A stretch of DNA of 64,000 nt from a virus. The position numbers and the translations under genes are program-made. Each line of letters begins with the position of its first letter. The first letter of the stretch is position 1. The stretch lies in the IMG/VR virus record IMGVR_UViG_3300025133_000029, positions 97,003-161,002 of that record; one strand, 5' to 3'. Positions 35,600-63,427 of this stretch are shown here, one piece after another. The notes beneath the pieces were generated by a model, which saw only the letters and a list, made by a program, of their open reading frames with translations, did not search any database and had not been told where the DNA came from.

Positions 35600-35925
35600 T
35601 AGAGGATTCTTCTCAGACCCTCTCTGAGATTAGAGAATCCCACCTAGTCCTCTCGGACCCTCTCTGAGATTAGAGAATCCCACCTAGTCCTGTGAGGATT
35701 TCAGGGCATTCTCTAATCCTCTCGGACCCCATCTAATCTTAGAGAGGGCCACCTAGTCCTGTGAGGATTCCAGAGAATTCTATAATCCTCTCGGACCCCA
35801 TCTAATCTCAGAGAGGGTCTATTGCCAGCCTATCTAATCTCAGAGAGGGCTTATTGCGAGGATTCTAGAGGACTAGATGGGATTCTCTAATCTCAGAGAG
35901 GGTCTATTGCCAGCCTAGACCCTTG
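35600..35925. repeat. inverted-repeat array
   Basis: The core CCCTCTCTGAGATTAG occurs twice in direct orientation (from about 35618 and 35658) and several times inverted as CTAATCTCAGAGAGGG (from about 35803, 35833 and 35887, plus a variant near 35734). Linkers CCACCTAGTCCT and TCTATTGCCAGCCTA are also repeated. The 35327-35942 gap holds no credible gene. Confidence 0.85.
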
Positions 35926-36800: not shown

Positions 36801-36822
36801 GTATAGAAAGCAAAGCATTTAC
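36801..36822 (-). promoter_or_regulatory. promoter-like element
   Basis: GTAAATGCTTTGC box then TATACAAT, upstream of the SprT-like gene. Confidence 0.7.
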
Positions 36823-37025
36823 GTGTGGTTAGTCTTGGTGCGGGAGGACTTGGTGTACTGTCTGTAAAAATGGAGAATGTGGGGATTGTCCGAAAAAAAA
36901 AGATCCGGACAGTGAGCGGGTTTGATTAGGGTCTCTCACAGGGGAAGTAAGAGCTTTTTTGGTGGGGATTGTGGTTTTTGTGAAAAAGGGTAGTTTTGGG
37001 GTGTTTTTGGTGGGGAAAGGTGTGG
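36823..37025. other. gap without recognised gene
   Basis: About 200 bp between the SprT-gene promoter and a palindrome. It holds a TGTCCG / CGGACA inverted repeat around an A-run near 36890-36915. I see no ORF. Confidence 0.5.
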
Positions 37026-37044
37026 ATCTTTAGAGTCTAAAGAT
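37026..37044. repeat. 19-bp palindrome
   Basis: Perfect, central G; 7 bp from the AT-cored hairpin at 37052. Confidence 0.95.
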
Positions 37045-37051: not shown

Positions 37052-37107
37052 TAGAGGACCCCACTCGCTTATATATATAAATATATATAAGCTCGTTGGG
37101 GCCTCTA
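37052..37107 (-). repeat. AT-cored long hairpin, copy 1
   Basis: On the - strand TAGAGG and CCCC arms pair with GGGG and CCTCTA, enclosing AACGAGC...GCGAGT and a long TA-alternating core. It includes the stop codon of the gene ending at 37105. Confidence 0.85.
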
Positions 37108-37602
37108 TGGTGATTTGTCTTTGGGTTGGGATATGTCGAAGATCTCTTGTGGGGTTCTCATGAAGGTTTTTGTACGTTGTTCTGGGTCAGGGTGGTTGTG
37201 GTATCGGATGGGTATGGGGGTGTGGGGGTCTGTTTTTAGAAGATTTGCGACAATGCTTCGTCCTTTTCCGATTCCACCAGTGTGATAGTTGACGTGCGCG
37301 ATGGGGAAAGTTTTGGTGAGAAGCTCTTCGGTTCCAGATTCTCTGGAGATGTCGAGAGGGGACATGGATGTTTCAGCGGATATGGTGGTGAGTTCGTGGC
37401 ATCCCGGTTGTTGTAGCACTTGGTCGATGCGCTCAATGCCACCTGCAACACCCGAAAACCCCTCGTCGCTGGATGAAGCCTGGAGGTAGTGTCGAGGGCA
37501 GGAGGTTGTTGGGTATAGTAGGATGCGGAGTCGGTATTGTTTGCCTGGGACGGGTTTGAATCGTTGGTGTTTGGATTGTGGTGGGCTGGAGGTGGGCTTC
37601 AT
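37105..37602 (-). CDS. hypothetical protein, 165 aa
   Basis: ATG 37602 after AAGGATAAAAAATAAAC. No motif recognised. Its TAG stop is built into the outer arm of the large AT-cored hairpin at 37052-37107. Last gene of the unit that starts with the ComM-like gene. Confidence 0.65.
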   Translation of the reverse strand: MKPTSSPPQSKHQRFKPVPGKQYRLRILLYPTTSCPRHYLQASSSDEGFSGVAGGIERIDQVLQQPGCHELTTISAETSMSPLDISRESGTEELLTKTFPIAHVNYHTGGIGKGRSIVANLLKTDPHTPIPIRYHNHPDPEQRTKTFMRTPQEIFDISQPKDKSP

Positions 37603-37604
37603 GT

Positions 37605-37763
37605 TTATTTTTTATCCTTTTTGAGTTTGAAGTGGAGTTGAGTAAAGGAGGTGTCGCCATCGGAGGTCGTTCTTCTTTTGTAGACACGAAAGGAGATGGG
37701 GTGGGGAGAGGGTGGGGAGTGATGGATGCTATCCCAGCATGTCTCGGAGTTCTTCGAAGGCAT
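37605..37763 (-). CDS. uncertain ORF, about 52 aa
   Basis: Open frame between the 123-aa and 165-aa genes; the part after residue 20 (ISFRVYKRRTTSDGDTSF) looks protein-like and it ends 2 bp before the next ATG. The start is unclear: ATG 37763 overlaps the upstream gene and has no good ribosome site. Confidence 0.3.
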   Translation of the reverse strand: MPSKNSETCWDSIHHSPPSPHPISFRVYKRRTTSDGDTSFTQLHFKLKKDKK

Positions 37764-38100
37764 CTCCGATGTCGTCGGAGTGTTCGCCCTGTGTCCATTC
37801 GAGGGCATAGGCGAGTCCTTGCACTTGGCACATCCAAATCAGTGCGCCGAGCTTTTCGGCCCCCTTGGGTCCAAAGATTTGACTGAAGTGGGATACCAGT
37901 TGAGGGTGCATCTCTACCTGGGCCTGGAGGGCTTCCCGCAGATTTTGGGTGGTGTCGGGGACGGACGCGGTGCGTTGTGGGTTTCCGACAATGGAGTAGG
38001 GGATGTGTGCTGCTGCTAGCAGTTGTTTTGCGCGTCCTGTGTTTTCTTCGACTGTGTTGTTGGGGCTGTCGTGGATGATGATTGTTTCTATTGGTTTCAT
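37729..38100 (-). CDS. hypothetical protein, 123 aa
   Basis: ATG 38100 is 11 bp after the ComM-like stop, so probably co-transcribed. Mostly helical after a short strand (TIIIHDSP). No family recognised; may be a partner of the ATPase (context only). Confidence 0.65.
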   Translation of the reverse strand: MKPIETIIIHDSPNNTVEENTGRAKQLLAAAHIPYSIVGNPQRTASVPDTTQNLREALQAQVEMHPQLVSHFSQIFGPKGAEKLGALIWMCQVQGLAYALEWTQGEHSDDIGDAFEELRDMLG

Positions 38101-38111
38101 GTGTGCTGGGC

Positions 38112-39686
38112 CTACTGGTTAGGGGGGAGGAGGTCGAGGGCTTCTTTGAGGTGTTCGTCGAGGATGTGGATGGAGCCTTCGATGTCGGCGATGGTTCTGG
38201 CGAGTCTTCTGGCGGTGATTTTATTATAGAATCGGTGTGCTTGATTGAGGAGTCTGGTGTCGTTGCAGGATGTGAGGGCGAAGTCGTTGTGAGAGAGAAC
38301 GAAGTCGGGAGGGCATGTTCCGTTGTTGTTGAGATTGGGGGCGAAGAAGTTACGGAATCGTATTCGTTGGGCGTTACGGGCGAGGAGGAGAAACACTTGA
38401 AGTTCATCGCTGGTGGGGGCGTGGTGATTGTCTTTGGGGTCGTTGGGTGTTGGTGTGGGGAGGTGAGTCCATATCTGTACCCTATTGGCAATTCTTTGGT
38501 TGCCGGGAGTCATTTGTCGTCTTGAGCTATGGGGAGCTTGTGTGGAAAAAACGGGGAGTGTGTGAATGGGGAAGGTTGTGGTGGTGTGGAATGTGTTTCC
38601 GCGGAGTTTGTAGTTTTTTTGGAAGGAGTTGCTTGCTCGTGGTATTTGTCTTTCGCGTGGTGGAGAGTCGAGGGTTCCCTCGGGGGTGTGATACATGCAG
38701 TGAAAGAGTCGCTCGAGGGTGTCTTCGAAGAGGGTGGCTTCATCGAGGAAGAGGATTCCGTGCAGTGCTCGATGGAGTTCACCGGGGTGGTCGTGATTGC
38801 CGGTAAGACCCTTTGTGCTGATGGTGTGGTGGGGGGCGCGAAAGGGAGGGGCATTGATGGGTTCGGGGTTGTGTCTTGCGTAGAGGAGATTGAGGTCGCG
38901 CTGTTGGTATTCGTCGAGGGGTGGGAGGATAGTGTTGATGCGTCGGGCGAGCATGGTTTTGCCTGTGCCTGCTTCTCCGTGGATGGCGATGGGGTGCCAT
39001 CCGGATGCGGCGATCAGAGCATGGCGGATATTAGGGAGGAGGTGGCGAGGGAGTTGTGAGAAGCATAGGTGGGTCGATCGAGACAGTGTTTGTGGCTCTG
39101 TGGGGCTCTCAGGGGGGCTGTAGGGGACGAGGGCTCTGCCCTCTTGAGTCATTGCGTCGAGGAGGTAGGTGAGTTGTTCGATGTCTTCACATGGGATGAT
39201 GTCGACCTTGTCGGCGAAGAGGTTGAGGATGTTGGAGTGGGATCTGATGCAGTCAGTGGAGAGAAAGACTCGTGCGATAGTGTCGCACTGGGAGGCGTGG
39301 TGGAGAAGGGTGTAGAGTCCGTGACATGGTTTGATTCGGCCAGAGAGGGCCAGTTCGCCCCAAAAGATGGAGTTTAGGGTGGGGATAAAGGGGATGCGTT
39401 CTTGGGCGAGGAGGAGGGAGACCGCGATGGGGAGGTCGAGGCATTCGGTGTTATTGGTGTTGGGTTGTGCTTCGATAGTAGTGCGGTAGGGGATGGTGCG
39501 TGAGAAGGAGGTTGCGGAGTTGCGGAGAGCGGCGGTGACGCGGATCTTTGTTTCGCGGAGGGGTTTTTGGAGATCTTGTTGAGAGTGCTTGATGGTGAGT
39601 GCGGGTTCACCTGCTTGTAGAACTTCCGTTCCGATGAGCGCGGGGAGGGGGCGTGGTCCTCGCGAGAGAAATCCATTTACGTACAT
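38112..39686 (-). CDS. ComM/YifB-like AAA+ ATPase (Mg-chelatase family)
   Basis: ATG 39686 was chosen because CCAGGAGCTACC precedes it; the upstream ATG at 39749 lies inside the promoter region. In this numbering, residues 80-120 are the Lon-like ChlI domain (CLDLPIAVSLLLA, FWGELALSGRIKP), Walker A GEAGTGKT is at 237-244, the family motif RAPHHTIS at 283-290, and Walker B GILFLDEA at 310-317. ARRLARTIADIEGS sits in the C-terminal domain. The NPCPCG/zinc segment and the LLDRxDL motif of bacterial ComM are degenerate. Bacterial ComM is a branch-migration helicase in natural transformation; here a recombination role is inferred. Confidence 0.85.
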   Translation of the reverse strand: MYVNGFLSRGPRPLPALIGTEVLQAGEPALTIKHSQQDLQKPLRETKIRVTAALRNSATSFSRTIPYRTTIEAQPNTNNTECLDLPIAVSLLLAQERIPFIPTLNSIFWGELALSGRIKPCHGLYTLLHHASQCDTIARVFLSTDCIRSHSNILNLFADKVDIIPCEDIEQLTYLLDAMTQEGRALVPYSPPESPTEPQTLSRSTHLCFSQLPRHLLPNIRHALIAASGWHPIAIHGEAGTGKTMLARRINTILPPLDEYQQRDLNLLYARHNPEPINAPPFRAPHHTISTKGLTGNHDHPGELHRALHGILFLDEATLFEDTLERLFHCMYHTPEGTLDSPPRERQIPRASNSFQKNYKLRGNTFHTTTTFPIHTLPVFSTQAPHSSRRQMTPGNQRIANRVQIWTHLPTPTPNDPKDNHHAPTSDELQVFLLLARNAQRIRFRNFFAPNLNNNGTCPPDFVLSHNDFALTSCNDTRLLNQAHRFYNKITARRLARTIADIEGSIHILDEHLKEALDLLPPNQ

Positions 39687-39733
39687 GGTAGCTCCTGGGT
39701 GGTGGGGGGGTGTTTTTTTATTAGTTGCTTCGT

Positions 39734-39758
39734 GAATGAAAGAAAGCAAAGCATTTAC
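39734..39758 (-). promoter_or_regulatory. promoter-like element
   Basis: GTAAATGCTTTGC box, 48 bp before the ComM-like start; supports ATG 39686. Confidence 0.65.
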
Positions 39759-39768
39759 GTGAGGGGAA

Positions 39769-39787
39769 ATCTTTAGAGTCTAAAGAT
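39769..39787. repeat. 19-bp palindrome
   Basis: Perfect, central G; between the ComM promoter and an AT-cored hairpin. Confidence 0.95.
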
Positions 39788-39808
39788 TTTGGATAGAGGT
39801 GTTGTGGG

Positions 39809-39852
39809 TATACAACGAGCATATATATATAATATATATGCGAGTGTATAGG
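39809..39852 (+). repeat. AT-cored long hairpin, copy 2
   Basis: TATAC arm, AACGAGC, TA-rich core, GCGAGT, GTATA arm on the + strand. Same inner motif as copies 1 and 3 with a different outer stem. Confidence 0.85.
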
Positions 39853-39858
39853 TGTGAA

Positions 39859-39948
39859 TTAGAGGGTGACTCTTTTGGTTTCTTCTTCGGTGAGGCCATC
39901 GATGGTCTCGAGGTATTTTCGAGTGAGCCACGTTCTACGCATGCTCAT
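39859..39948 (-). CDS. 29-aa micro-ORF coupled to upstream gene
   Basis: ATG 39948 overlaps the TGA of the 380-aa gene (ATGA). The peptide is basic at its N-terminus and acidic near its end (LETIDGLTEEETKRV), a plausible helix. The AT-cored hairpin at 39809-39852 begins 7 bp past its stop. Confidence 0.45.
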   Translation of the reverse strand: MSMRRTWLTRKYLETIDGLTEEETKRVTL

Positions 39949-41087
39949 GACTTATTGTCCTTTTCGCGCAGCGCCGCGCCGATGGTTTCCAGAGCGTCGT
40001 GTTCGTTGCTGGTGAGGAGGAAGTGGAGTTGCGCTTTAAAGCCTTCTTTCTCTAGATCCTGATTGCATTTTTCAAGGATGGCTTCGGTTCTATCGTTAAG
40101 GAAAAGCTGAACCCAGTCAGGAAGCTCTGTGATGTTGGGGTCGATGTCGTAGAGTTCGCAGAGGAGTTGCCAGTCACTCTTGTGTGGCCACCCGCAGCGT
40201 GAGGTGAAGTCCTGCCATGTTTGGGTGATCTCCGCGAGACCTTCCTTCACGTTATCACTCCACTCGTTGAAGTGGTCGACAAACCGCGACAGGGTGCGTA
40301 GCTGGGAAAGGAGACTGCTAGAGACTTGCTCGAAGTGTTCGACTTGAGCGCGGTGTCCATTTTGGGATAGAGACAAGATGTCCTTTGTTTCGCGGTAAAC
40401 CTCTGCCAGTTCAAGGCCAACCTTCCCAAAATGGTCGTGTCGTACTTTGAGTCGTCGCTTTTCTTCAACAATGAGGCGACGGATGGTTTCATCCAAGTGG
40501 GGGGTTCCATCTTCTGAGATGTCTTCGTCTTGTGTGTAGAAGGCTCCTCCTTGTATATCCCTGGCATCCTTGCAGGCATAGTACCAGTAAGGGACAGTGA
40601 CGGTGCTTTCGTAGGGGAAGGAGTAGTGGTTGGCGTTCAGGTAGTGGGAGAGGGGGCTTCCTTCGAGCGCTTCTTCGATCCGGGCTTCCTGGGTTTTGGC
40701 GAGGCTTGCTTGAATGGGTTGTCCGATGTAGGAGAGGGGTTTTTCGATTTGCCACTCGCCTTTAAAGGTGACCGTGATGGCTCCATCGGCTTCGTTGTCT
40801 TCCACATGGGAGACACCATAGATGACACGAATCATTCCCTCTTCGCGAAGGAACATGTTTTTGTCCAGGTAGAGAAGGAGTTCGCTTTGATCGGGATGTC
40901 CTTCGTTGCCTGGAGTTTCAAGTTCGTTAGCAAACTTGCAGGACTCTTCTGTTTTCTGATTCCCTCGCCAGTAGTAGGCAATCGTTTCAAGTATTGCCAC
41001 CGCTTGGGAGGCTTCCTGGGCTTCGTCCTCCGCATCAACATGGCGGTCCCAATCCTCACTGGGGCACCTCATTCTTGTCTTAGACAT
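39945..41087 (-). CDS. hypothetical protein, 380 aa
   Basis: ATG 41087 after AAGGAGTCAACG, behind the promoter element at 41121-41147. Acidic protein with a predicted coiled-coil near residues 225-275. No catalytic motif recognised. Confidence 0.7.
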   Translation of the reverse strand: MSKTRMRCPSEDWDRHVDAEDEAQEASQAVAILETIAYYWRGNQKTEESCKFANELETPGNEGHPDQSELLLYLDKNMFLREEGMIRVIYGVSHVEDNEADGAITVTFKGEWQIEKPLSYIGQPIQASLAKTQEARIEEALEGSPLSHYLNANHYSFPYESTVTVPYWYYACKDARDIQGGAFYTQDEDISEDGTPHLDETIRRLIVEEKRRLKVRHDHFGKVGLELAEVYRETKDILSLSQNGHRAQVEHFEQVSSSLLSQLRTLSRFVDHFNEWSDNVKEGLAEITQTWQDFTSRCGWPHKSDWQLLCELYDIDPNITELPDWVQLFLNDRTEAILEKCNQDLEKEGFKAQLHFLLTSNEHDALETIGAALREKDNKS

Positions 41088-41120
41088 CGTTGACTCCTTA
41101 TTGGTTACTAGTGTTTTCTC

Positions 41121-41147
41121 ATATATGAAAAAAAACAGAGCATTTAC
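41121..41147 (-). promoter_or_regulatory. promoter-like element
   Basis: GTAAATGCTCTG box then T-run and CATATATG, upstream of 41087. Confidence 0.7.
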
Positions 41148-41199
41148 GTGTATTGGGAAGTGAGGAAAAAAGGAAGGGTAGAGAAAGATGGGGAGAGAA

Positions 41200-41218
41200 A
41201 TCTTTAGACTCTAAAGAT
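41200..41218. repeat. 19-bp palindrome
   Basis: Perfect, central C; past the stop of 41239. Confidence 0.95.
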
Positions 41219-41238
41219 TTCTGTGTGTGTTGGTGGGG

Positions 41239-41523
41239 TTAGTTGGCGGGTCCGATGGAGATGTCGGTGTAGCCGTCCTGGGAAAGTTTTTCGTGGGTGG
41301 TTTGTTGTGTGCGGATAGCGAACTCTATCAATTTTTCAGAGGGAAACCATCGACAGTTGTTGGGGTCATATTCAGCTATGGTTTCCCCGTCCTTTGTGTC
41401 GAGGTCGGGGTTGGCCCCCATGCGAAGTTCGTCATATGTGAGTTGAAAAAAAGGAGACTCGAGGTGTTTGATGACGAAGCTTTTGTCTTCGTGGATATTC
41501 ATAAATTCTATGGAGAAGATCAT
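41239..41523 (-). CDS. hypothetical protein, 94 aa
   Basis: ATG 41523 follows AAAGGAACAACA; the longer open frame upstream overlaps the 194-aa gene out of frame. Third gene of the unit 42451 to 41239. Its stop lies in a 23-bp sequence repeated at the end of the gene upstream. Confidence 0.65.
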   Translation of the reverse strand: MIFSIEFMNIHEDKSFVIKHLESPFFQLTYDELRMGANPDLDTKDGETIAEYDPNNCRWFPSEKLIEFAIRTQQTTHEKLSQDGYTDISIGPAN

Positions 41524-41551
41524 TGTTGTTCCTTTGAGTGTGTTGGTGGGG

Positions 41552-42136
41552 TTAGTTGGCGGCTTCTTTGATGTATTGGTTGAGGCGCATGGCACGTTTG
41601 AGGAGGTTGTCACTCCAATCCGCGCCAGCGTAGAGCGGTTGAAGGGCAGGGCGTTGGGGCATGCCGTATCGCGTGTTGCCGAAACTGTTTGTGTTTTCTT
41701 CGATCCACTCATTCAGTTCATTGATGAGTCTGGACGCGCGGCGTTGCTGACAGTTACAGAGGGCATCGATGATAGCCTCGTGCTTGGTCCGAGCGATGTT
41801 GGCTTCTCTGATGGTGTCGTCGTCCCCAACCCATCGTTGTTCAGCTTTGGCGTCAAGGAGGGCGCGGTGGACAGCGGCGTCAATCCAGTCCCAGAGACAT
41901 GCGTCCTTGAGCATGGTGGGGCGTTCGGCTTTGATGTGGTCGTATATTTGGCGCAGGGAGGGTGGATACCCGACTCGATGATATCGTCGGAGGGCGTCTT
42001 TGACGAGACTGATCATCTCGTTCTTTTCTTCTTGGGTATAGGGGATGTTGTCGGTGGAGGACTTGAGTGGCCATCCACAGTTATCGCGACTGAGAACTTT
42101 GCAGTAGTTGGGTACGTATCCGTGGGCGTAAGACAT
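41552..42136 (-). CDS. hypothetical protein, 194 aa, helical
   Basis: ATG 42136 after AATAGGAGCTACCC. Residues 35-75 have a winged-helix-like pattern (EEKNEMISLVKDALRRY, PSLRQIYDHIK), so DNA binding is possible. No firm family. Confidence 0.65.
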   Translation of the reverse strand: MSYAHGYVPNYCKVLSRDNCGWPLKSSTDNIPYTQEEKNEMISLVKDALRRYHRVGYPPSLRQIYDHIKAERPTMLKDACLWDWIDAAVHRALLDAKAEQRWVGDDDTIREANIARTKHEAIIDALCNCQQRRASRLINELNEWIEENTNSFGNTRYGMPQRPALQPLYAGADWSDNLLKRAMRLNQYIKEAAN

Positions 42137-42145
42137 GGGTAGCTC

Positions 42146-42451
42146 CTATTGGTTGTCTTGTTCTTCTTCAAGCGCAGAGAGGCGCTCAAGTCGCCAGCCC
42201 TTCAATTTTTCGAGGAGGGCGATAAGACTGTCGATTTCTTTCGTGGTTTCAAGATACAGGTGAATCTTCCTGCGGAAGGTGTACTGGTCATGATCGTCGG
42301 GGATGTTGAAGGTGATACATGAGTTGACCCGTGCTTCGAGATCGGCCACATCGTCGTCGGGTCCGAGGGCTCTTGTACTTGAGCTGGCCCCGGCGCTACA
42401 TCCTGGGAAGTGTTTAGTGGTTTTGCGTCGGTGCATGCTAGTGAGGATCAT
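42146..42451 (-). CDS. hypothetical protein, 101 aa
   Basis: ATG 42451 after AACAAGGAGAAAGAAG, first gene behind the promoter at 42484-42505. C-terminal half is a long charged helix. Function unknown. Confidence 0.6.
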   Translation of the reverse strand: MILTSMHRRKTTKHFPGCSAGASSSTRALGPDDDVADLEARVNSCITFNIPDDHDQYTFRRKIHLYLETTKEIDSLIALLEKLKGWRLERLSALEEEQDNQ

Positions 42452-42483
42452 CTTCTTTCTCCTTGTTGGCTAGGTGTCACCTA

Positions 42484-42505
42484 CATAAGAAAGCAGAGCA
42501 TTTAC
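42484..42505 (-). promoter_or_regulatory. promoter-like element
   Basis: Full box, then CTTATG; heads the three-gene unit 42451-41239. Confidence 0.7.
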
Positions 42506-42557
42506 GTGTCGGGGGGGTGAAAAAGAGGAGGGGGGAGGTTGTTGGGGGGAGGTTTTA

Positions 42558-43025
42558 CTAGCAGAGGATGGAATCACTTTCTTCAACAGTGAGGATGACT
42601 GCGGGGAGGTATTCGAGTCCTAACATTTTTGCTTTAGCGATGCGGTGCCAGCCATCAATAATGAAAAGGGATGTTTGCCCTTCGTGTGGGGGGGAGGTGA
42701 GTACTTTTGTTATAGCGATGAGCGGGATACTGAGGTTGAAGCGACCCAGACGCTGCTGGACATCTGCCAGGATGGCATCCCAGTCAACGGAGATCATCAT
42801 CATTTGTAGCTTGCGCTTGCCGTCAGGACCCGGTGGATTGCCTACGTAGTCTGCAAGACCTTCTATTCCAATTTTGATAATTTCGCGCTCGTCTTGTCGG
42901 AGGATTTCTTTAGCTTTCACAACATCCCACATGGTGCGCATGAGTTGAAACGCTTCATCCTCGCAATGTTCACTGGTGGTGTCCCATTCAAAGTCGGGAA
43001 CTTCCATCGTGGGGTAGTGTGTCAT
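42558..43025 (-). CDS. ParB-like nuclease-fold domain protein, 155 aa
   Basis: ATG 43025 after TAAGGAATAGATC. Residues about 100-148 (IPLIAITKV, FIIDGWHRIAKAKMLGLEYLPAVIL) match the ParB/sulfiredoxin-like DGxHR motif region. Phage proteins of this type include DNA-modifying and partition-like enzymes; no DNA-binding HTH is attached here. The upstream 450 bp hold structured, non-coding DNA. Confidence 0.7.
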   Translation of the reverse strand: MTHYPTMEVPDFEWDTTSEHCEDEAFQLMRTMWDVVKAKEILRQDEREIIKIGIEGLADYVGNPPGPDGKRKLQMMMISVDWDAILADVQQRLGRFNLSIPLIAITKVLTSPPHEGQTSLFIIDGWHRIAKAKMLGLEYLPAVILTVEESDSILC

Positions 43026-43048
43026 GATCTATTCCTTAATATAAAAAA

Positions 43049-43212
43049 AGAGCAGGCATGTTAGTGCTTGGTTGGGCGCTACTTCAAAGAACAAAAACTT
43101 TTTTATCAGGAGCCGTTTTGAACTTTGTGGGGATTGAGAGCCGCCTGTAGCGCCTCCATGAACACCCTTTTTTACCACCTAGCATTTAGCGGTTATCTAA
43201 CATGCCCGCTCT
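43049..43212 (-). ncRNA. candidate structured RNA, three nested stems
   Basis: Nested complementary arms: 43049-43064 with 43197-43212 (15 of 16 paired), 43075-43082 with 43147-43154 (GGCGCTAC / GTAGCGCC), and CAAAG...AAAAC at 43085-43098 with GTTTT...CTTTG at 43115-43127. On the - strand the last arm runs into TTTTTTTA. The left arm also resembles a degenerate promoter box for the ParB-like gene, so a regulatory DNA site is the alternative. Confidence 0.45.
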
Positions 43213-43252
43213 CATGTGTTTAAGTATCAGTCATGTGAGAGGGAAAAGGAAG

Positions 43253-43345
43253 CCCCGCGCTGCGCATCAGTTGTTTGCTTATGCCAAAGTCTGGTGTGTG
43301 GGTTAGTTTTGGCAAATAGTGATTCGTTTGATGCGAAGCGCAGGG
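43253..43345. ncRNA. candidate structured RNA, long stem
   Basis: 17-nt arms 43253-43269 and 43329-43345 pair with two mismatches, enclosing TGCCAAA / TTTGGCA (43282-43288 and 43308-43314). Strand undecided. No ORF covers it. Confidence 0.4.
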
Positions 43346-43483
43346 ATTCCAATCGTAACGTTTGGGGTTATTGTTGTTAGAGAAACGGGTTGGGGTTGAG
43401 TTTTGAGAACTGCGGGTTAGGGTTGTTGTTTAGTGTGGGCGAGTGTGGGGCCAAATGGCCCCGTGTGGGGGTGGAGTTGTTTC

Positions 43484-44170
43484 TTAGGAGGTTTGGGCCG
43501 AGGTAGCTTTCTTTTTGCCCTTAGCGCTTTTCTTTTTGCCTTTGGCGCTTTTCTTTTTGCCCTTGGTGGAGGCTTTGGGTTCCTCAACCTGGGGTTCGGG
43601 GGTGGCTTCGGCTTGCGCTTCGGCTTCGGGGGTGGCTTCGGCTTGCGCCTCGGTGGTGGGGGGGGAGGGGACCGTGGCGGTCTCTTCGGTGAGGGTGGCT
43701 TCGTTGCTCATGCCTTTGGTGGAGTGAGCCAGCCGTTTGGCGGTCTCTTCTTCGGTGGAGAAGCGCTTGCCCTTGTAGTTGTAGATGGCGTCGACACCGT
43801 TGTCGTGGATGCTCATCGGGGAGTCGCTCACCGTGGCGAAGGCGTCGGTCATGCCGGGGAGGTTTTCGAGGTAGAGGGGGATCTTGGTGCCGTTGGGCGT
43901 GGTCAACATGAGGACTTTGCCGTCGAGTTCGAGGTTAGCCTCGCTCAGTCCGTCGAACAGGGTGGAGGCGGGGACCGTGGCGGTGCCGAAGCTTTCGAGT
44001 CGGAGGTCGCATTCGACACCGTGTTTGATGGTGAAGCCTCGGTCGATGTCGTCGAAGGAGCGTCGTTCTTCGATCACGATGCCATCGGCGTAGATCACGG
44101 CGACCTGGGCGCTCTTGAGGAGTTTGGTGAGCTTGGAGTTGGGTTGGAAGCTGGTGTTCTCTTTCTTCAT
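43484..44170 (-). CDS. paralog of the 52.9-kb gene, with Lys-rich repeat tail, 228 aa
   Basis: ATG 44170 after AGGAGAACAATC. Residues 10-50 (NSKLTKLLKSAQVAVIYADG, RRSFDDIDR) and 120-145 (DNGVDAIYNYKGKRFS) are clearly related to the protein at 52908-53525. The tail after residue 165 is Ala/Glu/Pro-rich and then repeats SAKGKKK three times, like a basic DNA-binding tail. Function unknown. Confidence 0.75.
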   Translation of the reverse strand: MKKENTSFQPNSKLTKLLKSAQVAVIYADGIVIEERRSFDDIDRGFTIKHGVECDLRLESFGTATVPASTLFDGLSEANLELDGKVLMLTTPNGTKIPLYLENLPGMTDAFATVSDSPMSIHDNGVDAIYNYKGKRFSTEEETAKRLAHSTKGMSNEATLTEETATVPSPPTTEAQAEATPEAEAQAEATPEPQVEEPKASTKGKKKSAKGKKKSAKGKKKATSAQTS

Positions 44171-44268
44171 GATTGTTCTCCTGCCCTATTTTTAGGGGCT
44201 TTGCTAGGAAGTTGCGCTAAAGTGCGCTGTGGCGTGTTCGCTAGTTGTTAGCGTTTCGCCGGGTTCGC

Positions 44269-44293
44269 TATTGAGAGAAAGCAGAGCATTTAC
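44269..44293 (-). promoter_or_regulatory. promoter-like element
   Basis: Full box, then CTCAATAG; about 100 bp before the gene starting at 44170. Confidence 0.65.
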
Positions 44294-44311
44294 GGGAAGT
44301 CAGTCAAAACA

Positions 44312-44339
44312 AAAAAGGATGACCGGGAGGCCATCCTTA
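44312..44339 (-). terminator. intrinsic terminator
   Basis: On the - strand AAGGATG / CATCCTT then TTTT, just past the stop at 44370. Confidence 0.8.
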
Positions 44340-44369
44340 GACAGTTGGGGTTTGGGTGTGTGTTGGGGC

Positions 44370-45077
44370 TTAGATTCGGCCATATCGTCGAAGGAGGGCC
44401 AGGATGGCTTCGTGGTGGTTTTCGATGTTTGCCATTTGTTCCATCTTTTGGAAGCCTCGTGCCAGGGTGGTGGCATCTTCGAAGATAGTGGAGACATGAA
44501 GCTCATAGAGAAGATCTAGTGTTTCTTCGAAGCTCTGGGTATCCCTTTCCTGGTTGTTGCATGTGTCGCAGCGTTTGACTGCAATGTTACTGCCGCCGAA
44601 GTCATTGTAGCGCCAGACCTCACATCCGCATGTGAGGAACATTCTGTCCTCGTTTTCCTGGAGGAGGGCGTCGTAGGGAAGCTCGATGGGTTCATCAATG
44701 AGAGCTTCTTCGTAGAGCATGAGGTGGGGACAGAGGACACCCTGTACAAAGCTGTCCATGTCTTTGATCATTGCGGCGATGTTCCATTCGCGCATGGGGA
44801 AGTGTTCTTCGTGAAGCTCTGGAGAGAAGAGGTCTCGATAGTAGGGGTTCAGTTGAAAAAAGAAGGAGGCGGTCTCTTGTTCGGCGAGTGCGTGATGTTG
44901 AATGATGTGGCCAATGCTCATGGTTCCATCATCATAGTATGTGCAATTGGTAAAGCCATACTTCACCCGCCACACTTTTTGATCTTTGTTGCTCTTGAAG
45001 TAGTGTTCGGGTTCTTCAGTGTCGTGGGGACAAAACTGAAGAGATTCGAGACTGCCTACGATTTCGGGAACGTTCAT
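44370..45077 (-). CDS. hypothetical protein, 235 aa
   Basis: ATG 45077 (after GCGAGGCAATAGCA) was chosen because the longer in-frame ATG at 45122 lies inside the promoter element 45121-45143. CGC and CDTC near residues 165-190 may bind zinc. Otherwise unrecognised. Followed by an intrinsic terminator. Confidence 0.65.
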   Translation of the reverse strand: MNVPEIVGSLESLQFCPHDTEEPEHYFKSNKDQKVWRVKYGFTNCTYYDDGTMSIGHIIQHHALAEQETASFFFQLNPYYRDLFSPELHEEHFPMREWNIAAMIKDMDSFVQGVLCPHLMLYEEALIDEPIELPYDALLQENEDRMFLTCGCEVWRYNDFGGSNIAVKRCDTCNNQERDTQSFEETLDLLYELHVSTIFEDATTLARGFQKMEQMANIENHHEAILALLRRYGRI

Positions 45078-45120
45078 TGCTATTGCCTCGCTAGGTGGTG
45101 GGTGGGTTGACTTGTCGCTC

Positions 45121-45143
45121 ATGTAAAAAAGCAGAGCATTTAC
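45121..45143 (-). promoter_or_regulatory. promoter-like element
   Basis: Full box, then TTTTTTACATG; a palindrome copy abuts it upstream (45151). Confidence 0.75.
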
Positions 45144-45150
45144 GAGAAGA

Positions 45151-45169
45151 ATCTTTAGAGTCTAAAGAT
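45151..45169. repeat. 19-bp palindrome
   Basis: Perfect, central G; 7 bp upstream of a promoter box and 21 bp from an AT-cored hairpin. Confidence 0.95.
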
Positions 45170-45190
45170 TCTGAGAAGTGTTTGCGCAGG

Positions 45191-45235
45191 AACCCAACGA
45201 GCTTATATATATATATATATATAAGCGAGTGGGTT
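45191..45235 (+). repeat. AT-cored long hairpin, copy 3
   Basis: AACCC arm, AACGAGC, TA-alternating core, GCGAGT, GGGTT arm. Flanked on both sides by 19-bp palindromes. Confidence 0.85.
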
Positions 45236-45257: not shown

Positions 45258-45276
45258 ATCTTTAGACTCTAAAGAT
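45258..45276. repeat. 19-bp palindrome
   Basis: Perfect, central C; on the other side of the same hairpin, 2 bp past the stop of 45279. Confidence 0.95.
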
Positions 45277-58290: not shown

Positions 58291-58345
58291 AGGCTTAGGG
58301 GGGGCTTAGGGGGGGCTTAGGGGGGGCTTAGGGGGGCTTAGGGGC
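58291..58345. repeat. G-tract repeat GGCTTAGGGGG
   Basis: About five tandem units after the + strand gene at 58129; low complexity. Confidence 0.85.
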
Positions 58346-58408
58346 TAACACATACATATAGCCGGGGCTAACACAAACAAGCCCCTTGTTATAAAAACAA
58401 AGGGCTTA

Positions 58409-58430
58409 GTAAATGCTCTAGTTTTTTATA
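58409..58430 (+). promoter_or_regulatory. forward promoter-like element facing a - strand gene
   Basis: GTAAATGCTCTAG plus TTTTTTATA, then a palindrome at 58438; points into the 3' end of the gene 58482-58769. Confidence 0.7.
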
Positions 58431-58437
58431 CCTATAA

Positions 58438-58456
58438 ATCTTTAGACTCTAAAGAT
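58438..58456. repeat. 19-bp palindrome
   Basis: Perfect, central C; directly after a forward promoter element, near the expected transcription start. Confidence 0.95.
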
Positions 58457-58481
58457 CCCCCTCACCCCCCCTTTTGTTGTT

Positions 58482-58769
58482 TTATTCGACGTTGATAACA
58501 ACGGTCACAAAGTGTCCCGGTGCGGGGTGAATATTTTCCGGGAACCCTTGTCTCGCTGAAAACTTTTTAGACGCGTTCATATTGAATTCGGGATTGTGTT
58601 TATAGCGGTCCCCGGCGATTGATTGATCGGCTTGATCTATCGCGTCTGCAAGGGCGTCGTACCAAGTTGGCCCTGTTCCTAAGAAGCCTTCGGGCGGGAT
58701 CTCATTGATAGGCTTCGGGTAGCTCGGCTCTTTGATTGAGGGGCAGGCCGCGTACAAAAGTTTAATCAT
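58482..58769 (-). CDS. hypothetical protein, 95 aa
   Basis: ATG 58769 after GAGGATAAACACA. Begins with MIKLLYAACPS and contains TWYDALADAIDQADQSI. A forward promoter at 58409-58430 points into its 3' end, so antisense transcription is possible. Confidence 0.6.
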   Translation of the reverse strand: MIKLLYAACPSIKEPSYPKPINEIPPEGFLGTGPTWYDALADAIDQADQSIAGDRYKHNPEFNMNASKKFSARQGFPENIHPAPGHFVTVVINVE

Positions 58770-58799
58770 TGTGTTTATCCTCGTTATAGGGTTCAAACT

Positions 58800-58821
58800 T
58801 ATAAGAACCTAGAGCATTTAC
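58800..58821 (-). promoter_or_regulatory. promoter-like element
   Basis: GTAAATGCTCTAGG box then CTTATAAG; upstream of 58769. Confidence 0.75.
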
Positions 58822-58856
58822 CTAAAAAGCCCCTTGTTATAACAACAAAGGGCTTA

Positions 58857-58878
58857 GTAAATGCTCTAGTTTTTTATA
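58857..58878 (+). promoter_or_regulatory. forward promoter-like element facing a - strand gene
   Basis: Second copy of the 58409 element, followed by a palindrome at 58886; points into 58935-59306. Confidence 0.7.
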
Positions 58879-58885
58879 CCTATAA

Positions 58886-58904
58886 ATCTTTAGAGTCTAA
58901 AGAT
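58886..58904. repeat. 19-bp palindrome
   Basis: Perfect, central G; same position relative to the second forward promoter copy. Confidence 0.95.
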
Positions 58905-58934
58905 CCCCCTCACCCCCCTAAGCCTAGCCCTATC

Positions 58935-59306
58935 TTAGTTATCAGTCGCCCGATATCGTCTGATCCGGGGAGCGTATTTTTGATGAAAGTCCTCATACGT
59001 GTTATGCAGGGGAAAGGTGTGGGTCAAAACGGTTACGGCGGTGTAGCAGTGGTCACCAAGATCGTCGATCGTGACCGTGAGGGTCAGTTCCCCGACAAGC
59101 ATGAAACAGGTCGTTTGACCGTGGCCGCATAGCCACTCACACTTATCGGGGTCGGCCTCAAACTCAACATCTTCAACCGTCACCTTAGCGTTGCCTATGT
59201 TGTTATTGAGTTCCTCATCAATCCCCCAACCCTCGACGTCATGGGGGCTGGCGGCAGTGATCGCCGCCGCGATTTCTTCCGCCGTAGCGGGTTTGTTAAA
59301 CATCAT
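58935..59306 (-). CDS. hypothetical protein, 123 aa
   Basis: ATG 59306 (or the next codon) after AAGGAGCTAACAAG. Contains a CEWLCGHGQTTC segment that could bind a metal. A forward promoter at 58857-58878 points into its 3' end. Confidence 0.65.
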   Translation of the reverse strand: MMFNKPATAEEIAAAITAASPHDVEGWGIDEELNNNIGNAKVTVEDVEFEADPDKCEWLCGHGQTTCFMLVGELTLTVTIDDLGDHCYTAVTVLTHTFPLHNTYEDFHQKYAPRIRRYRATDN

Positions 59307-59340
59307 CTTGTTAGCTCCTTATAGCTATAGGGTTCAAACT

Positions 59341-59362
59341 TATAAAAACCTAGAGCATTTAC
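59341..59362 (-). promoter_or_regulatory. promoter-like element
   Basis: GTAAATGCTCTAGG box, then TTTTTATAAG; upstream of 59306. Confidence 0.75.
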
Positions 59363-59397
59363 CTATCAAGACCCTTAAAGGGGTTAGCCCCGGCTAG

Positions 59398-59630
59398 CCT
59401 TATTTGTTCCACTTGGGGCGCTGGTTCAGCGCTAAGGCTAGGCGCGGGGCCTGTTTACGGCGTCGGGTTCATGCCTAGCGGGGTGAAAATACTTTCAACT
59501 AGGGCCGTCTTAGATCGGGATATCCCCCCCGATCAACCGCTCACTTGAGCGCTAAGGTTATCACGGGTAAGGGATGCTTTGATTGCCCTTTTGGGTGACC
59601 CGTGAGCCGTTAGCTCAACGTCGTTCACCT
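59398..59630 (-). ncRNA. candidate non-coding transcript, hairpin-rich
   Basis: Downstream of the promoter at 59631 there is no gene. On the - strand I see consecutive hairpins CACGGGT / ACCCGTG, GCGCTCA / TGAGCG, GATCGGG / CCCGATC and GCGCTG-AAC-CAGCGC. Confidence 0.4.
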
Positions 59631-59653
59631 ATATAATAAAACAAAGCATTTAC
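59631..59653 (-). promoter_or_regulatory. promoter-like element heading an ORF-less unit
   Basis: GTAAATGCTTTG box, then TTATTATATAGG; followed leftward by hairpin-rich DNA without a gene. Confidence 0.7.
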
Positions 59654-59673
59654 ATGAACACGCTATAAACAAC

Positions 59674-59695
59674 AAAAGCCCCGTTAGGGGCTAGC
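59674..59695 (-). terminator. intrinsic terminator
   Basis: On the - strand AGCCCC-TAAC-GGGGCT then TTTG, after the stop at 59711. Confidence 0.7.
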
Positions 59696-59710
59696 TAGAC
59701 TTAGTGGGGG

Positions 59711-60193
59711 CTAGTGTTTGAACACCCATCGCATCAGTTGACGGATCGGGTTATTATAGGCGAGTCCCCACCCGGCGATCTTAGATCGTGTGAGGTTGAA
59801 GGGGTGATTATAGCCAGCCAGGATCTCCCCTGCCGCCCCGGCGCTGAGAGAGATCATAGCTATGTTGTCGGGGTTGTCCGGATCGCGGAAAGGGTTGTCT
59901 TCACGGGGGATCATATAGGTCGACATAGACCTGATCCTTAGCGCGACAGTGTGAATAGTCGGAAGCTTGAGACAGGGGTGCTCACGTAATAACTCCGCAG
60001 TGTCATCAACCTTTTTATATTCACGAAGATCAAGGATCAGGTCATAGTGACCGAGTTCCCAAAACTTCTTAGGGTCGGGCTGATTGATCACAATCACGCC
60101 CCCCCCGTTCAAAAATAAGATCGGGTCTTGTCTTAGTTTTGAGATGAGAATCGGGTCATCAGGGATCACCTTTACCTCAATTTTCTTTTTCAT
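59711..60193 (-). CDS. hypothetical protein, 160 aa
   Basis: ATG 60193 after TAGGAGCTAACAAA. Alpha/beta, with a Gly-rich stretch (SLSAGAAGEILAGY). Family not recognised. Followed by a terminator at 59674-59695. Confidence 0.65.
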   Translation of the reverse strand: MKKKIEVKVIPDDPILISKLRQDPILFLNGGGVIVINQPDPKKFWELGHYDLILDLREYKKVDDTAELLREHPCLKLPTIHTVALRIRSMSTYMIPREDNPFRDPDNPDNIAMISLSAGAAGEILAGYNHPFNLTRSKIAGWGLAYNNPIRQLMRWVFKH

Positions 60194-60240
60194 TTTGTTA
60201 GCTCCTAGCTAATAAAGGGTATATAGGGGATCACTCAACC

Positions 60241-60262
60241 TATAACAACCCAGAGCATTTAC
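60241..60262 (-). promoter_or_regulatory. promoter-like element with conserved leader
   Basis: GTAAATGCTCTGGG box, then GTTATAGGTTGAGTGATCCC, a leader shared with the elements near 61824, 62237, 63059, 63356 and 63747. Confidence 0.75.
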
Positions 60263-60426
60263 CCTGCTAGGGTTAGCGGGGGTTAGCTAGGGTTAGCGGG
60301 GGCTAGCGGGGGTTAGCTAGGGTTAGTGGGGGCTAGTGGGGGCTAGTGGGGGCTAGCGGGGGTTAGCGGGGGCTAGCGGGGGCTAGCGGGGGCTAGCGGG
60401 GGTTAGCGGGGGCTAGCGGGGGTTAG
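60263..60426. repeat. decamer G-tract array (GGGGGCTAGC type)
   Basis: About 16 units of ten bases, mostly GGGGG(C/T)TAG(C/T), between a leftward and a forward promoter element. G-tracts of five spaced by five bases suit G-quadruplex folding. Confidence 0.9.
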
Positions 60427-60450
60427 GTAAATGCTTTGTTTTGTTGCACT
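60427..60450 (+). promoter_or_regulatory. forward promoter-like element
   Basis: GTAAATGCTTTG then TTTTGTTGC, at the end of a G-tract array and facing the 3' end of the membrane protein gene. Confidence 0.5.
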
Positions 60451-60461
60451 AGCTCGAACAA

Positions 60462-60483
60462 CAAAAGCCCCTAACGGGGCTAG
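60462..60483 (-). terminator. intrinsic terminator
   Basis: On the - strand GCCCC-GTTA-GGGGC then TTTT, after the membrane protein gene ending at 60500. Confidence 0.7.
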
Positions 60484-60499
60484 TTAGGGCGCGGGGGGT

Positions 60500-60907
60500 C
60501 TACTTGATCCAGATCGCCGCGTCAACCGTCAGGGCGTAGGCGGTCATAGCGATCAGGCCGATGACCGCGCCGATCATGAGAAGTTTGAGTGTTTTTTTGA
60601 GCGTGATCGGGCGCTCAGGCTTAGGGGCCTCAAGGCCGCGTAGGTCAACGAGCGTGGGCATTTGCCCGAACAATCCTTCTTCGTGAAGGGGCTTAGGGGG
60701 GGCTTGTTGAGGGGTCGCGGTGTCAATCTTAAGCCAACCCTTGGGCACACGCGGCTCGTGTGTCGAGGGCGCGGGGTAGCTCAGGGGGGGGGTGATCGCG
60801 GGGTGTTCGGGGTAGTTGAGCGCGGGGGGGGCCGTTTTCACGGTGTCATTAGGGGTGTCGGTAATAACGCGGGTGAAGGGGCTTTTGTAGGCTGCGGTCA
60901 TGTTCAT
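60500..60907 (-). CDS. single-pass membrane protein, 135 aa
   Basis: ATG 60907 (or 60901, after AGGAAAGAAAA). Pro-rich N-terminal two-thirds, then a basic stretch and a membrane segment near residues 107-127 (LLMIGAVIGLIAMTAYAL). Probably anchored with its N-terminus inside. Confidence 0.65.
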   Translation of the reverse strand: MNMTAAYKSPFTRVITDTPNDTVKTAPPALNYPEHPAITPPLSYPAPSTHEPRVPKGWLKIDTATPQQAPPKPLHEEGLFGQMPTLVDLRGLEAPKPERPITLKKTLKLLMIGAVIGLIAMTAYALTVDAAIWIK

Positions 60908-60974
60908 TTTTCTTTCCTATAGCTAGGGGGGCGACCGGGTTGTTGATCCCGGTCAGGGTGTTTTGTGCTCAACC

Positions 60975-60996
60975 TATAACAACCCAACGCATTTAC
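60975..60996 (-). promoter_or_regulatory. promoter-like element
   Basis: GTAAATGCGTTGGG variant, then GTTATAGGTTG; upstream of 60907. Confidence 0.65.
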
Positions 60997-61014
60997 CTAA
61001 ACCCCTATAAATAG

Positions 61015-61038
61015 GTAAATACTCTAGTCTTTTGTAGG
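61015..61038 (+). promoter_or_regulatory. forward promoter-like element heading an ORF-less unit
   Basis: GTAAATACTCTAG then TCTTTTGTAGG, divergent from the element at 60975; followed by a hairpin-rich region and a terminator at 61202. Confidence 0.6.
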
Positions 61039-61040
61039 GG

Positions 61041-61237
61041 TGAGCTAACAAGTGTTCGGGCCTCGCCCCTTGTTAGCCTAAGCCCCGGCTAGGGGTCACG
61101 GATCTAACACCGCGACCTGACCCTATAGCCCAGGCTAACGCCCCGTTAGGGGGCCAACGGTTAGGGATCTATGATCGCGGCCTAACCCTAAGCCCCCTAA
61201 CAAAAAGGGCACCTAAGCGGCTATAAGCCCCTTTTTT
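61041..61237 (+). ncRNA. candidate non-coding transcript with duplicated hairpin module
   Basis: Forward promoter 61015 and terminator 61202 bound a unit with no ORF. It holds two related hairpins, GGGTCA / TGACCC and GGTTAGG / CCTAACC, whose loops share GGATCTA and CGCG. Confidence 0.45.
61202..61237 (+). terminator. intrinsic terminator of a forward ORF-less unit
   Basis: AAAAAGGGC / GCCCCTTTTTT on the + strand, about 170 bp after the forward promoter at 61015. Confidence 0.75.
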
Positions 61238-61285
61238 GACAATGTTTTGGGCTTTTTATAGGCGCTTAGGTTTATCCTGGCTTAG

Positions 61286-61310
61286 GTAAATACTCTAGGT
61301 TTTTATAAGT
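61286..61310 (+). promoter_or_regulatory. forward promoter-like element
   Basis: GTAAATACTCTAGG then TTTTTATAAG, 31 bp before the + strand gene at 61341. Confidence 0.75.
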
Positions 61311-61340
61311 TTGAACCCTATAACTATAAGGACAAAAAAA

Positions 61341-61541
61341 ATGTTCAAAGGCTTTAAAATGATCGCCGCCCTCGCCGCTAACGCCGCTAACATCCGGATC
61401 GCCGCCCTGGAGGCCAAAATTGAGTGGCTTTTCGACAACTTTGAAGGTTGTGACTGGTGTGACGAATGTGGCGGGGGTGACCGCTTATTAGCGGCCTATG
61501 AGGCGGAGATCGCCGCCCTTGAGGCTAGCTTAGGTCGCTAA
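61341..61541 (+). CDS. 66-aa + strand protein with CxxC...C motif
   Basis: ATG 61341 after TATAAGGAC, behind a forward promoter element (61286-61310). Helical Ala/Ile/Glu repeats flank a CDWCDEC motif (near residues 37-43); zinc binding or disulfide possible. A leftward promoter at 61587-61610 faces its 3' end. Confidence 0.65.
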   Translation: MFKGFKMIAALAANAANIRIAALEAKIEWLFDNFEGCDWCDECGGGDRLLAAYEAEIAALEASLGR

Positions 61542-61586
61542 CACAAAAAGGGGGGGGCGGGGGATTTTTTTGACTTTAAAGGTTCT

Positions 61587-61610
61587 TATATAACAAAGCA
61601 GAGCATTTAC
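61587..61610 (-). promoter_or_regulatory. promoter-like element facing a + strand gene
   Basis: Full box then GTTATATAAG, pointing into the 3' end of 61341-61541. Confidence 0.65.
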
Positions 61611-61623
61611 CTTAGTCCAACAA

Positions 61624-61645
61624 CAAAGCCCCGTTAGGGGCTAGC
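61624..61645 (-). terminator. intrinsic terminator
   Basis: On the - strand AGCCCC-TAAC-GGGGCT then TTG, after the stop at 61661. Confidence 0.6.
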
Positions 61646-61660
61646 TAGGGTTAGCGGGGG

Positions 61661-61780
61661 TTATTTTTTGTTAGGGGTGGGGGCGTTTTTTGAACGCCAC
61701 ATCACCCATGATTTTTTAGTGCATGCGCAGTTGTGAATAAACCAAATTTCGTAATTGTAATTTTTGTTAGAATCTTTCAT
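61661..61780 (-). CDS. 39-aa small protein
   Basis: ATG 61780 after AAGGAACAAA, 44 bp downstream of a promoter element (61824-61845). It holds IHNCACTKKSW, a Cys pair, and a basic C-terminus. The promoter and ribosome site support it as real. Confidence 0.5.
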   Translation of the reverse strand: MKDSNKNYNYEIWFIHNCACTKKSWVMWRSKNAPTPNKK

Positions 61781-61823
61781 TTTGTTCCTTATCTAATAAA
61801 GGGTCATAGGGGATCACTCAACC

Positions 61824-61845
61824 TATAACAACCCAGAGTATTTAC
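61824..61845 (-). promoter_or_regulatory. promoter-like element
   Basis: GTAAATACTCTGGG box, then GTTATAGG; upstream of the 39-aa gene. Confidence 0.65.
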
Positions 61846-61863
61846 CCCTAGCCGCTATAAACG

Positions 61864-61885
61864 AGAAAAGCCCCGCTAGGGGCTA
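61864..61885 (-). terminator. intrinsic terminator
   Basis: On the - strand GCCCC-TAGC-GGGGC then TTTT, after the stop at 61899. Confidence 0.75.
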
Positions 61886-61898
61886 GCTAGGGTGTGAC

Positions 61899-62195
61899 CT
61901 AACCGCGCGGGTCTTCATAGTCAAGCCCTAGCGCGGCGGCGAGGTCCGGGCTAAGATCCCAAGCGCTAGCGATCTGCCACCGGATCGGGTAGATCGCTTC
62001 ACCGGGGTGATCGGTGTGTTGACGGGTGAGGGGGTGCGTGTTATAAACGCGGCTATCCGCGTCAATAACAAGAGTGTTACCCTTGAAGGTGACCCCCTTG
62101 AGGGCTTCAGCGGCAGGGATAGCCCCCTCGCTGTAACCCTCAATCGCGGGGCGCGGGTCAGTGAATCGGCGGCTAGTGAAGTTAGGCTTAGTCAT
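61899..62195 (-). CDS. hypothetical protein, 98 aa
   Basis: ATG 62195 after AAGGAGCTAAC. Small alpha/beta protein with no recognised motif; ends just before a terminator (61864-61885). Confidence 0.65.
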   Translation of the reverse strand: MTKPNFTSRRFTDPRPAIEGYSEGAIPAAEALKGVTFKGNTLVIDADSRVYNTHPLTRQHTDHPGEAIYPIRWQIASAWDLSPDLAAALGLDYEDPRG

Positions 62196-62236
62196 GTTAG
62201 CTCCTTAGCTAATAATAAATAGGGGATCACTCAACC

Positions 62237-62258
62237 TATAACAACCCAGAGCATTTAC
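62237..62258 (-). promoter_or_regulatory. promoter-like element
   Basis: GTAAATGCTCTGGG box, then GTTATAGG; upstream of 62195, with the G-tract array behind it. Confidence 0.75.
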
Positions 62259-62462
62259 CCGTTAGGGTTAGCTAGGGCTAGCTAGGGCTAGCGGGGGCTA
62301 GCGGGGGCTAGCGGGGGCTAGCGGGGGCTAGCGGGGGCTAGCTAGGGTTGTTAGGGTTGTTAGCTAGGGTTGTTAGGGTTGTTAGGGTTGTTAGGGTTGT
62401 TAGCTAGGGCTAGCTAGGGTTGTTAGCTAGGGCTAGGGTTGTTAGCTAGGGTTAGCTAGGGT
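62259..62462. repeat. decamer G-tract array, second block
   Basis: GGGGGCTAGC units grade into TTGTTAGGG and GCTAGGG units; lies between two leftward promoter elements. Confidence 0.9.
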
Positions 62463-62482
62463 TAGCTAGTACAACAAAAGGT

Positions 62483-62505
62483 TTATAACAAAGCAGAGCA
62501 TTTAC
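62483..62505 (-). promoter_or_regulatory. promoter-like element behind G-tract array
   Basis: Full box, then GTTATAAACC; would transcribe the array leftward. No ORF follows. Confidence 0.65.
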
Positions 62506-62525
62506 CCCTAAGCCGCTATAAACGA

Positions 62526-62547
62526 GAAAAGCCCCGCTAGGGGCTAG
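62526..62547 (-). terminator. intrinsic terminator in duplicated cassette
   Basis: Same hairpin as at 61864, after the stop at 62564; part of the 109-bp repeat. Confidence 0.75.
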
Positions 62548-62563
62548 CTAGGGGCGCGGGGGG

Positions 62564-63013
62564 CTAGCTAAGGGTCAGATTAGCTTTGATCTCAACCCGG
62601 CGGTTTTCAAGATCGCCGTATGTCAGGGGGATCACACCGTTAGCGAACACTTGATCGCGCTTGAGGGGGGGGTGGCTAGGGTCACACCGCTTGATCCAAC
62701 TGTTAGCTTGTTGAAGGGTCAAGGGGCGGCACTCAAGCGCGGTGCCCTCACCGATCTCAAGATCTTCACCCCAGCGATCGGGGTTAGCCGATCGGTCTAA
62801 CACACCGTGATTGATCACGCCGCGCCGGTGGCTAAGCGTAAGGATAAGATCATAATCACCGACAACCGTCGATCCGTTATATTCTTGATTAGGATCAACC
62901 GGGGCGGCAACGCTAAGCGTCATAGTTTGAGGGTTGAAAATGATCGGGCTAACGTTATTGATGTCGGGGATTTTTTGATCTAACATTTTCTTTCGGCGAT
63001 CGGTTTGACTCAT
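62564..63013 (-). CDS. paralog of the 57.5-kb gene, 149 aa
   Basis: ATG 63013 after AAGGAGCTAACAAAC; the longer in-frame start overlaps the promoter and is rejected. SPIIFNPQTMTLSVA, ANPDRWGED and EGTALEC match the protein at 57478-57813. The C-terminal 50 residues are extra. Function unknown. Confidence 0.7.
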   Translation of the reverse strand: MSQTDRRKKMLDQKIPDINNVSPIIFNPQTMTLSVAAPVDPNQEYNGSTVVGDYDLILTLSHRRGVINHGVLDRSANPDRWGEDLEIGEGTALECRPLTLQQANSWIKRCDPSHPPLKRDQVFANGVIPLTYGDLENRRVEIKANLTLS

Positions 63014-63058
63014 GTTTGTTAGCTCCTTAGCTAATAATAAATAGGGGATCACTCAACC

Positions 63059-63080
63059 TATAACGGATCAAAGCATTTAC
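63059..63080 (-). promoter_or_regulatory. promoter-like element
   Basis: GTAAATGCTTTGATCC box, then GTTATAGG; upstream of 63013. Confidence 0.75.
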
Positions 63081-63130
63081 CTGTTAGGGCTAGGGGCCAA
63101 CTAGCCCCGCCTAACTAGCCAACGTTGATC

Positions 63131-63426: not shown

Positions 63427-63427
63427 A

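Follow-up and report, generated by a model that had tools for sequence, protein, structure and literature searches.

Three AT-cored hairpins in the gene-end slots of the early region of a distant SPO1-like phage

Three related hairpins with pure A+T cores lie within 8 kb of one virus genome, and raise the question of whether such elements act on RNA, act on DNA or are functionless repeats. The window analysed here was a stretch of 64,000 nucleotides corresponding to bases 97003-161002 of the 161,002-bp virus record IMGVR_UViG_3300025133_000029. Its major head protein displayed 40-43% identity to those of SPO1-group Herelleviridae and up to 62% identity to those of uncultured viruses; the record hosting the hairpins is a distant SPO1-like phage. 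From ~34 kb to the end of the window, genes were mostly found on the minus strand, and most early minus-strand genes were preceded by a promoter-like motif, CGTAAATGCTNTGCTTTC (30 matches versus 0.09 expected).

The motif AACGAGC-N-GCGAGT was found at 37063-37097 (minus strand), 39814-39845 (plus strand) and 45196-45230 (plus strand), in agreement with the initial annotation. These three occurrences compare with 0.04 expected by chance in the window, a number reached in none of 100 shuffles, and no further copy was found elsewhere in the 161-kb record, all three lying within 8 kb of a single genome. According to motif scan and folding, and for copy 3 also to repeat comparison, copy 1 (37052..37107, minus strand) reads TAGAGG-CCCC-A-ACGAGC-AT22-GCGAGT-GGGG-(bulge)-CCTCTA, copy 2 (39809..39850, plus strand) TATAC-A-ACGAGC-AT19-GCGAGT-GTATA and copy 3 (45191..45235, plus strand) AACCC-A-ACGAGC-AT22-GCGAGT-GGGTT. 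The helix proceeds through A-U, C-G, tandem G-A/A-G, G-C and C-G pairs, with one bulged A and complementary outer arms. The spacer between ACGAGC and GCGAGT consisted of A+T only in all three copies (22, 19 and 22 nt, respectively). The outer stem of copy 1 extended further than previously annotated, with a second 1-nt bulge (T) followed by six further pairs. Copies 1 and 3 proved to be a single 41-nt element in inverted orientation, differing by one substitution (98% identity; core 45193-45233 in copy 3). As already noticed in the initial annotation, orientation relative to transcription was mixed: the G-A strand is the early-gene sense (minus) strand in copy 1 only and antisense (plus) in copies 2 and 3, so that a G-A motif in sense RNA cannot be common to all.

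For either strand, minimum free energy (MFE) folding of the RNA recovered the hairpin (z -2.3 to -8.0), with the pairing described above, which had been proposed earlier. The differing outer arms were each complementary to their own partner over the 4, 5 and 5 bp that immediately follow the bulged A, the chance per site being 0.004 for at least 4 bp and 0.001 for at least 5 bp. Within the shared helix, three out of 16 pairs changed between copy 2 and copies 1/3, all of them on both sides, and one-sided changes were absent; this was equalled by 19 of 500 shuffles, close to the best result attainable with three rows. A six-row pair count was set aside, as each copy entered it with its two strands, which doubled the data. 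Since copies 1 and 3 are near-identical 41-mers, two independent versions, not three, stand behind the covariation. The earlier reading of this covariation as selection on structure was therefore retained in part: the comparison supports the view that pairing of the stems was kept during divergence, while selection for the tandem G-A did not emerge from two versions. Six random substitutions over 41 positions would all miss the 15 motif positions with a probability of ~0.05 (hand calculation), so the apparently conserved G-A may reflect common ancestry only, and conservation of the G-A/A-G motif beyond common descent was not demonstrated statistically.

The three hairpins occupy the usual gene-end slot of the early region. 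For these minus-strand genes, all three copies displayed the same order: stop codon, hairpin, 19-bp palindrome and promoter-like motif. Copy 1 begins at the stop codon itself, that of ORF 37105-37602 (minus strand), which is thus included in the hairpin; a palindrome (37026..37044) lies on its promoter-proximal side and the early promoter-like motif CGTAAATGCTTTGCTTTC downstream (36806..36823, minus strand). Copy 2 is preceded by the stop of a putative ORF of 29 aa deduced from the sequence itself, and a palindrome (39769..39787) is located between it and the next promoter-like motif (39742..39759, minus strand). Copy 3 is followed by a palindrome (45151..45169) and a motif match (45127..45144, minus strand), with another palindrome on its gene side (45258..45276). 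These palindromes, identified by palindrome scan, were 7, 21 and 21/22 nt away from the outer arms of copies 1, 2 and 3, within the 25 bp announced earlier. Among 26 stop-to-promoter slots, hand-picked from the ORF list and the promoter-like motif, on which their boundaries rest rather than on annotation or RNA data, 21 harbored a non-palindrome hairpin of -12 kcal/mol or lower, versus 40% of coding controls. The enrichment was modest (Mann-Whitney p 0.012) for a slot set that takes in the three copies. Most sister slots carried a stable hairpin unrelated in sequence to the three copies; some of these hairpins combined a GC stem with a U-tract, and around one half were devoid of one, which leaves the function of the slot-hairpin class itself unproved.

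The chances appear near even, tilted slightly in favor, that the hairpins serve the early transcription units of this distant SPO1-like phage as stem-loops at gene 3' ends. Slot order, slot enrichment, fold z-scores, compensated pairs and the inverted 41-nt duplicate were counted for it; against it stand the missing U-tract and the AT core, which is poorly suited to a terminator stem. Like phage intrinsic (bidirectional) terminators, the hairpins form a stable stem-loop shortly after the gene end and before the next promoter, with stems that vary while pairing is kept. Unlike them, they combine an AT-rich upper stem and an internal G-A loop with the absence of a U-tract directly after the stem, on either strand and in any copy (minus-strand tails CATGAAA, CCCACAACA and CCTGCGCAA; plus-strand tails without T-run), and therefore fall outside the classical definition of an intrinsic terminator. 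No competing terminator hairpin was found in the three slots (in that of copy 1, within the part near the stop codon). From position, pairing and duplication, all directly observed, we infer an action on RNA, in which the stem-loop would define or protect the 3' end of early mRNA. It might do so through polymerase pausing or termination with weak U dependence or, by analogy, as a processing site for a double-strand endonuclease of RNase III type. RNase III cleavage sites are reported for early mRNA of SP82, an SPO1-group phage (Panganiban and Whiteley 1983, Cell 33:907, cited in PMC12502629); the apparent likeness, cleavage of early mRNA in this phage group, serves as a lead. Copies would have spread among slots by local duplication, tolerated in either orientation because an inverted repeat works in both, and would then have drifted under a pairing constraint. 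Tandem G-A in 5'-CGAG-3' forms stable non-Watson-Crick pairing; the shared G-A/A-G context may be mainly due to common ancestry and perhaps be kept for this stability. The small, local hairpin family is real and probably made of ordinary gene-end hairpins copied locally. If so, they bring an AT-cored, U-tract-free form into the arrangement of early genes in a distant SPO1-like phage, and suggest that copying of such hairpins from gene to gene is possible in both orientations.

Action at the DNA level, with the AT-cored repeats extruding as cruciforms or folding single-stranded during replication and a phage protein binding or cutting the loop, seems unlikely. Orientation would then be irrelevant, which accommodates the G-A strand being antisense to genes in two of three copies, and the hairpin cores are AT-alternating palindromes, a classical cruciform-prone sequence. 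DNA folds were stable too (z about -5 to -6), recovering the full hairpin for copies 1 and 3, but the MFE fold of copy 2 paired the inner stem only. All three copies adjoin the 19-bp palindrome, which occurred in nine of the 26 slots (p ~0.03, hypergeometric by hand). However, there are only three copies, all inside 8 kb, and no partner protein was identified. GC skew did not switch at the copies, which disfavors DNA-level action as well as the replication origin for which the initial annotation proposed a test.

Somewhat less likely still, the hairpins could be a selfish or passively duplicated REP-like repeat without function, the pairing of which is maintained by template-switch homogenisation. 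The near-identity of the inverted 41-nt copies and their restriction to 8 kb of a single genome would agree with this, and template switching can homogenise the arms of inverted repeats with no need for selection (PMC7202029, PMC8604942). Yet the same GA/GA mismatch is found in all three copies between perfect flanks; since template switching should have erased it, a pairing constraint is the better reading. The consistent placement in gene-end slots also argues against passive duplication. REP and REPIN elements are likewise short imperfect intergenic palindromes, present in both orientations with variable stems, but the three copies in 161 kb, all in one 8-kb region and with no common GTAG/GGAG head at the stem foot, led to rejection of a REP element proper.

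A phage-specific structured element, either RNA or extruded DNA, in which a dedicated phage protein would read the internal loop (bulged A, A-U, C-G and tandem G-A) independently of orientation and together with the 19-bp palindrome, was judged improbable. Kink-turns similarly display tandem sheared-type G-A/A-G pairs beside a bulge, but the bulge here is 1 nt long and two Watson-Crick pairs separate it from the G-A pairs. By inspection, the 3-nt-bulge form was possible in copy 2 only, copies 1 and 3 requiring a C-T mismatch in the C stem, and a kink-turn was rejected. A duplex DNA binding site made of direct CGAG repeats flanking an AT-rich bendable spacer is very improbable: CGAG does occur in direct orientation in ACGAGC and GCGAGT around a pure A+T spacer in all copies, but the 3-bp difference between spacers of 19 and 22 would rotate the half-sites by ~1/3 helix turn, and the complementary outer arms would be left unexplained.

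The further homologues with compensatory changes on which the initial annotation had staked its claim were not encountered in viral contigs, bacterial genomes or virus records related through the major capsid protein (MCP). In viral contigs, exact motif scans gave no match and relaxed scans nine chance matches, none of which folded as the hairpin; a scan of bacterial genomes gave none. A covariance model applied to 39 other virus records (38 MCP-related and a 66-kb contig, G001, described below) matched in one record only; the sole match outside the phage at E<=1 was a simple (TA)n stretch preceding a gene and was discarded as a homologue. Another scan, which covered 733 kb of sequence, most of it related, returned weak scores only, and protein searches with the adjacent genes 44370-45122 and 38112-39686 revealed no closer relatives. 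No Rfam family matched in the window at gathering score, and at E<=1 a single chance miRNA match appeared. An integron attC site (RYYYAAC ... GTTRRRY) was rejected by inspection, one end being matched only in copy 3 (ACCCAAC) and the other being absent in all.

The 19-bp palindrome ATCTTTAGANTCTAAAGAT is a more unusual feature than the hairpins. It was found in 54 copies in the 161-kb record with up to three mismatches (e.g. at window positions 5294, 8127, 11283, 37026, 45151 and 58886), 47 of which were located outside called genes, the calls from a simple script being approximate. Mean spacing was 2.9 kb with a coefficient of variation (CV) of 0.50, where random placement gave 0.97 and random intergenic slots 0.88; such regularity was attained in none of 5000 placements. 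A relative, G006, carried a different palindrome, GTTCAGTNACTGAAC, in 32 copies (up to two mismatches) every 3.3 kb (CV 0.44), and by eye both shared the core TTYAGWNWCTRAA; no such palindrome was found in four other relatives. The regularly spaced palindrome, whose counterpart in a related phage has another sequence but the same spacing, may represent a phage site of genome-wide extent. The nearest known idea is that of stoperators, dispersed repressor sites that stop transcription (PMC9283540); this concept does not readily account for the regular spacing and the intragenic copies. Upstream of the window, at G000 10021-10075 and 66811-66855, palindrome copies were included in longer perfect inverted repeats with arms of 26 and 21 bp, respectively. 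Seventeen copies of the same palindrome were also present on the 66-kb contig IMGVR_UViG_3300006923_000020 (L027-L030; G001), which had several proteins in common with G006 and none convincingly in common with the hairpin-bearing record. This contig may come from elsewhere in the same phage genome or from that of a sister phage. That it displayed the palindrome without common proteins had suggested a host-recognised sequence, an idea weakened by the proteins shared between G001 and G006.

Other features of the early region were observed. Between 34453 and 63932, [CG]GTAAATGCTYTGCTTT occurred in some 28 promoter-like copies, nearly all of them minus-strand, and most early genes had a single one; this extended pattern had no match in the viral contigs scanned. 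The gene at 38112-39686 (minus strand) encodes an AAA+ protein of the ComM/ChlI-like magnesium-chelatase type, apparently an unusual product for a phage early region. At 43036-43232 (minus strand), a non-coding stretch of ~180 nt was predicted to form a single long hairpin with GCUC-U7 at its end (-62 kcal/mol, z -4.5); it had no Rfam match and has the appearance of a phage small RNA with a 6S-like outline. The stretch between called genes at 35604-35905 contained inverted and tandem repeats some 36-69 nt long, and tandem G-rich decamers (GGGGGCTAGC, GGGTTAGC and variants) separated early genes at 58292-63907.
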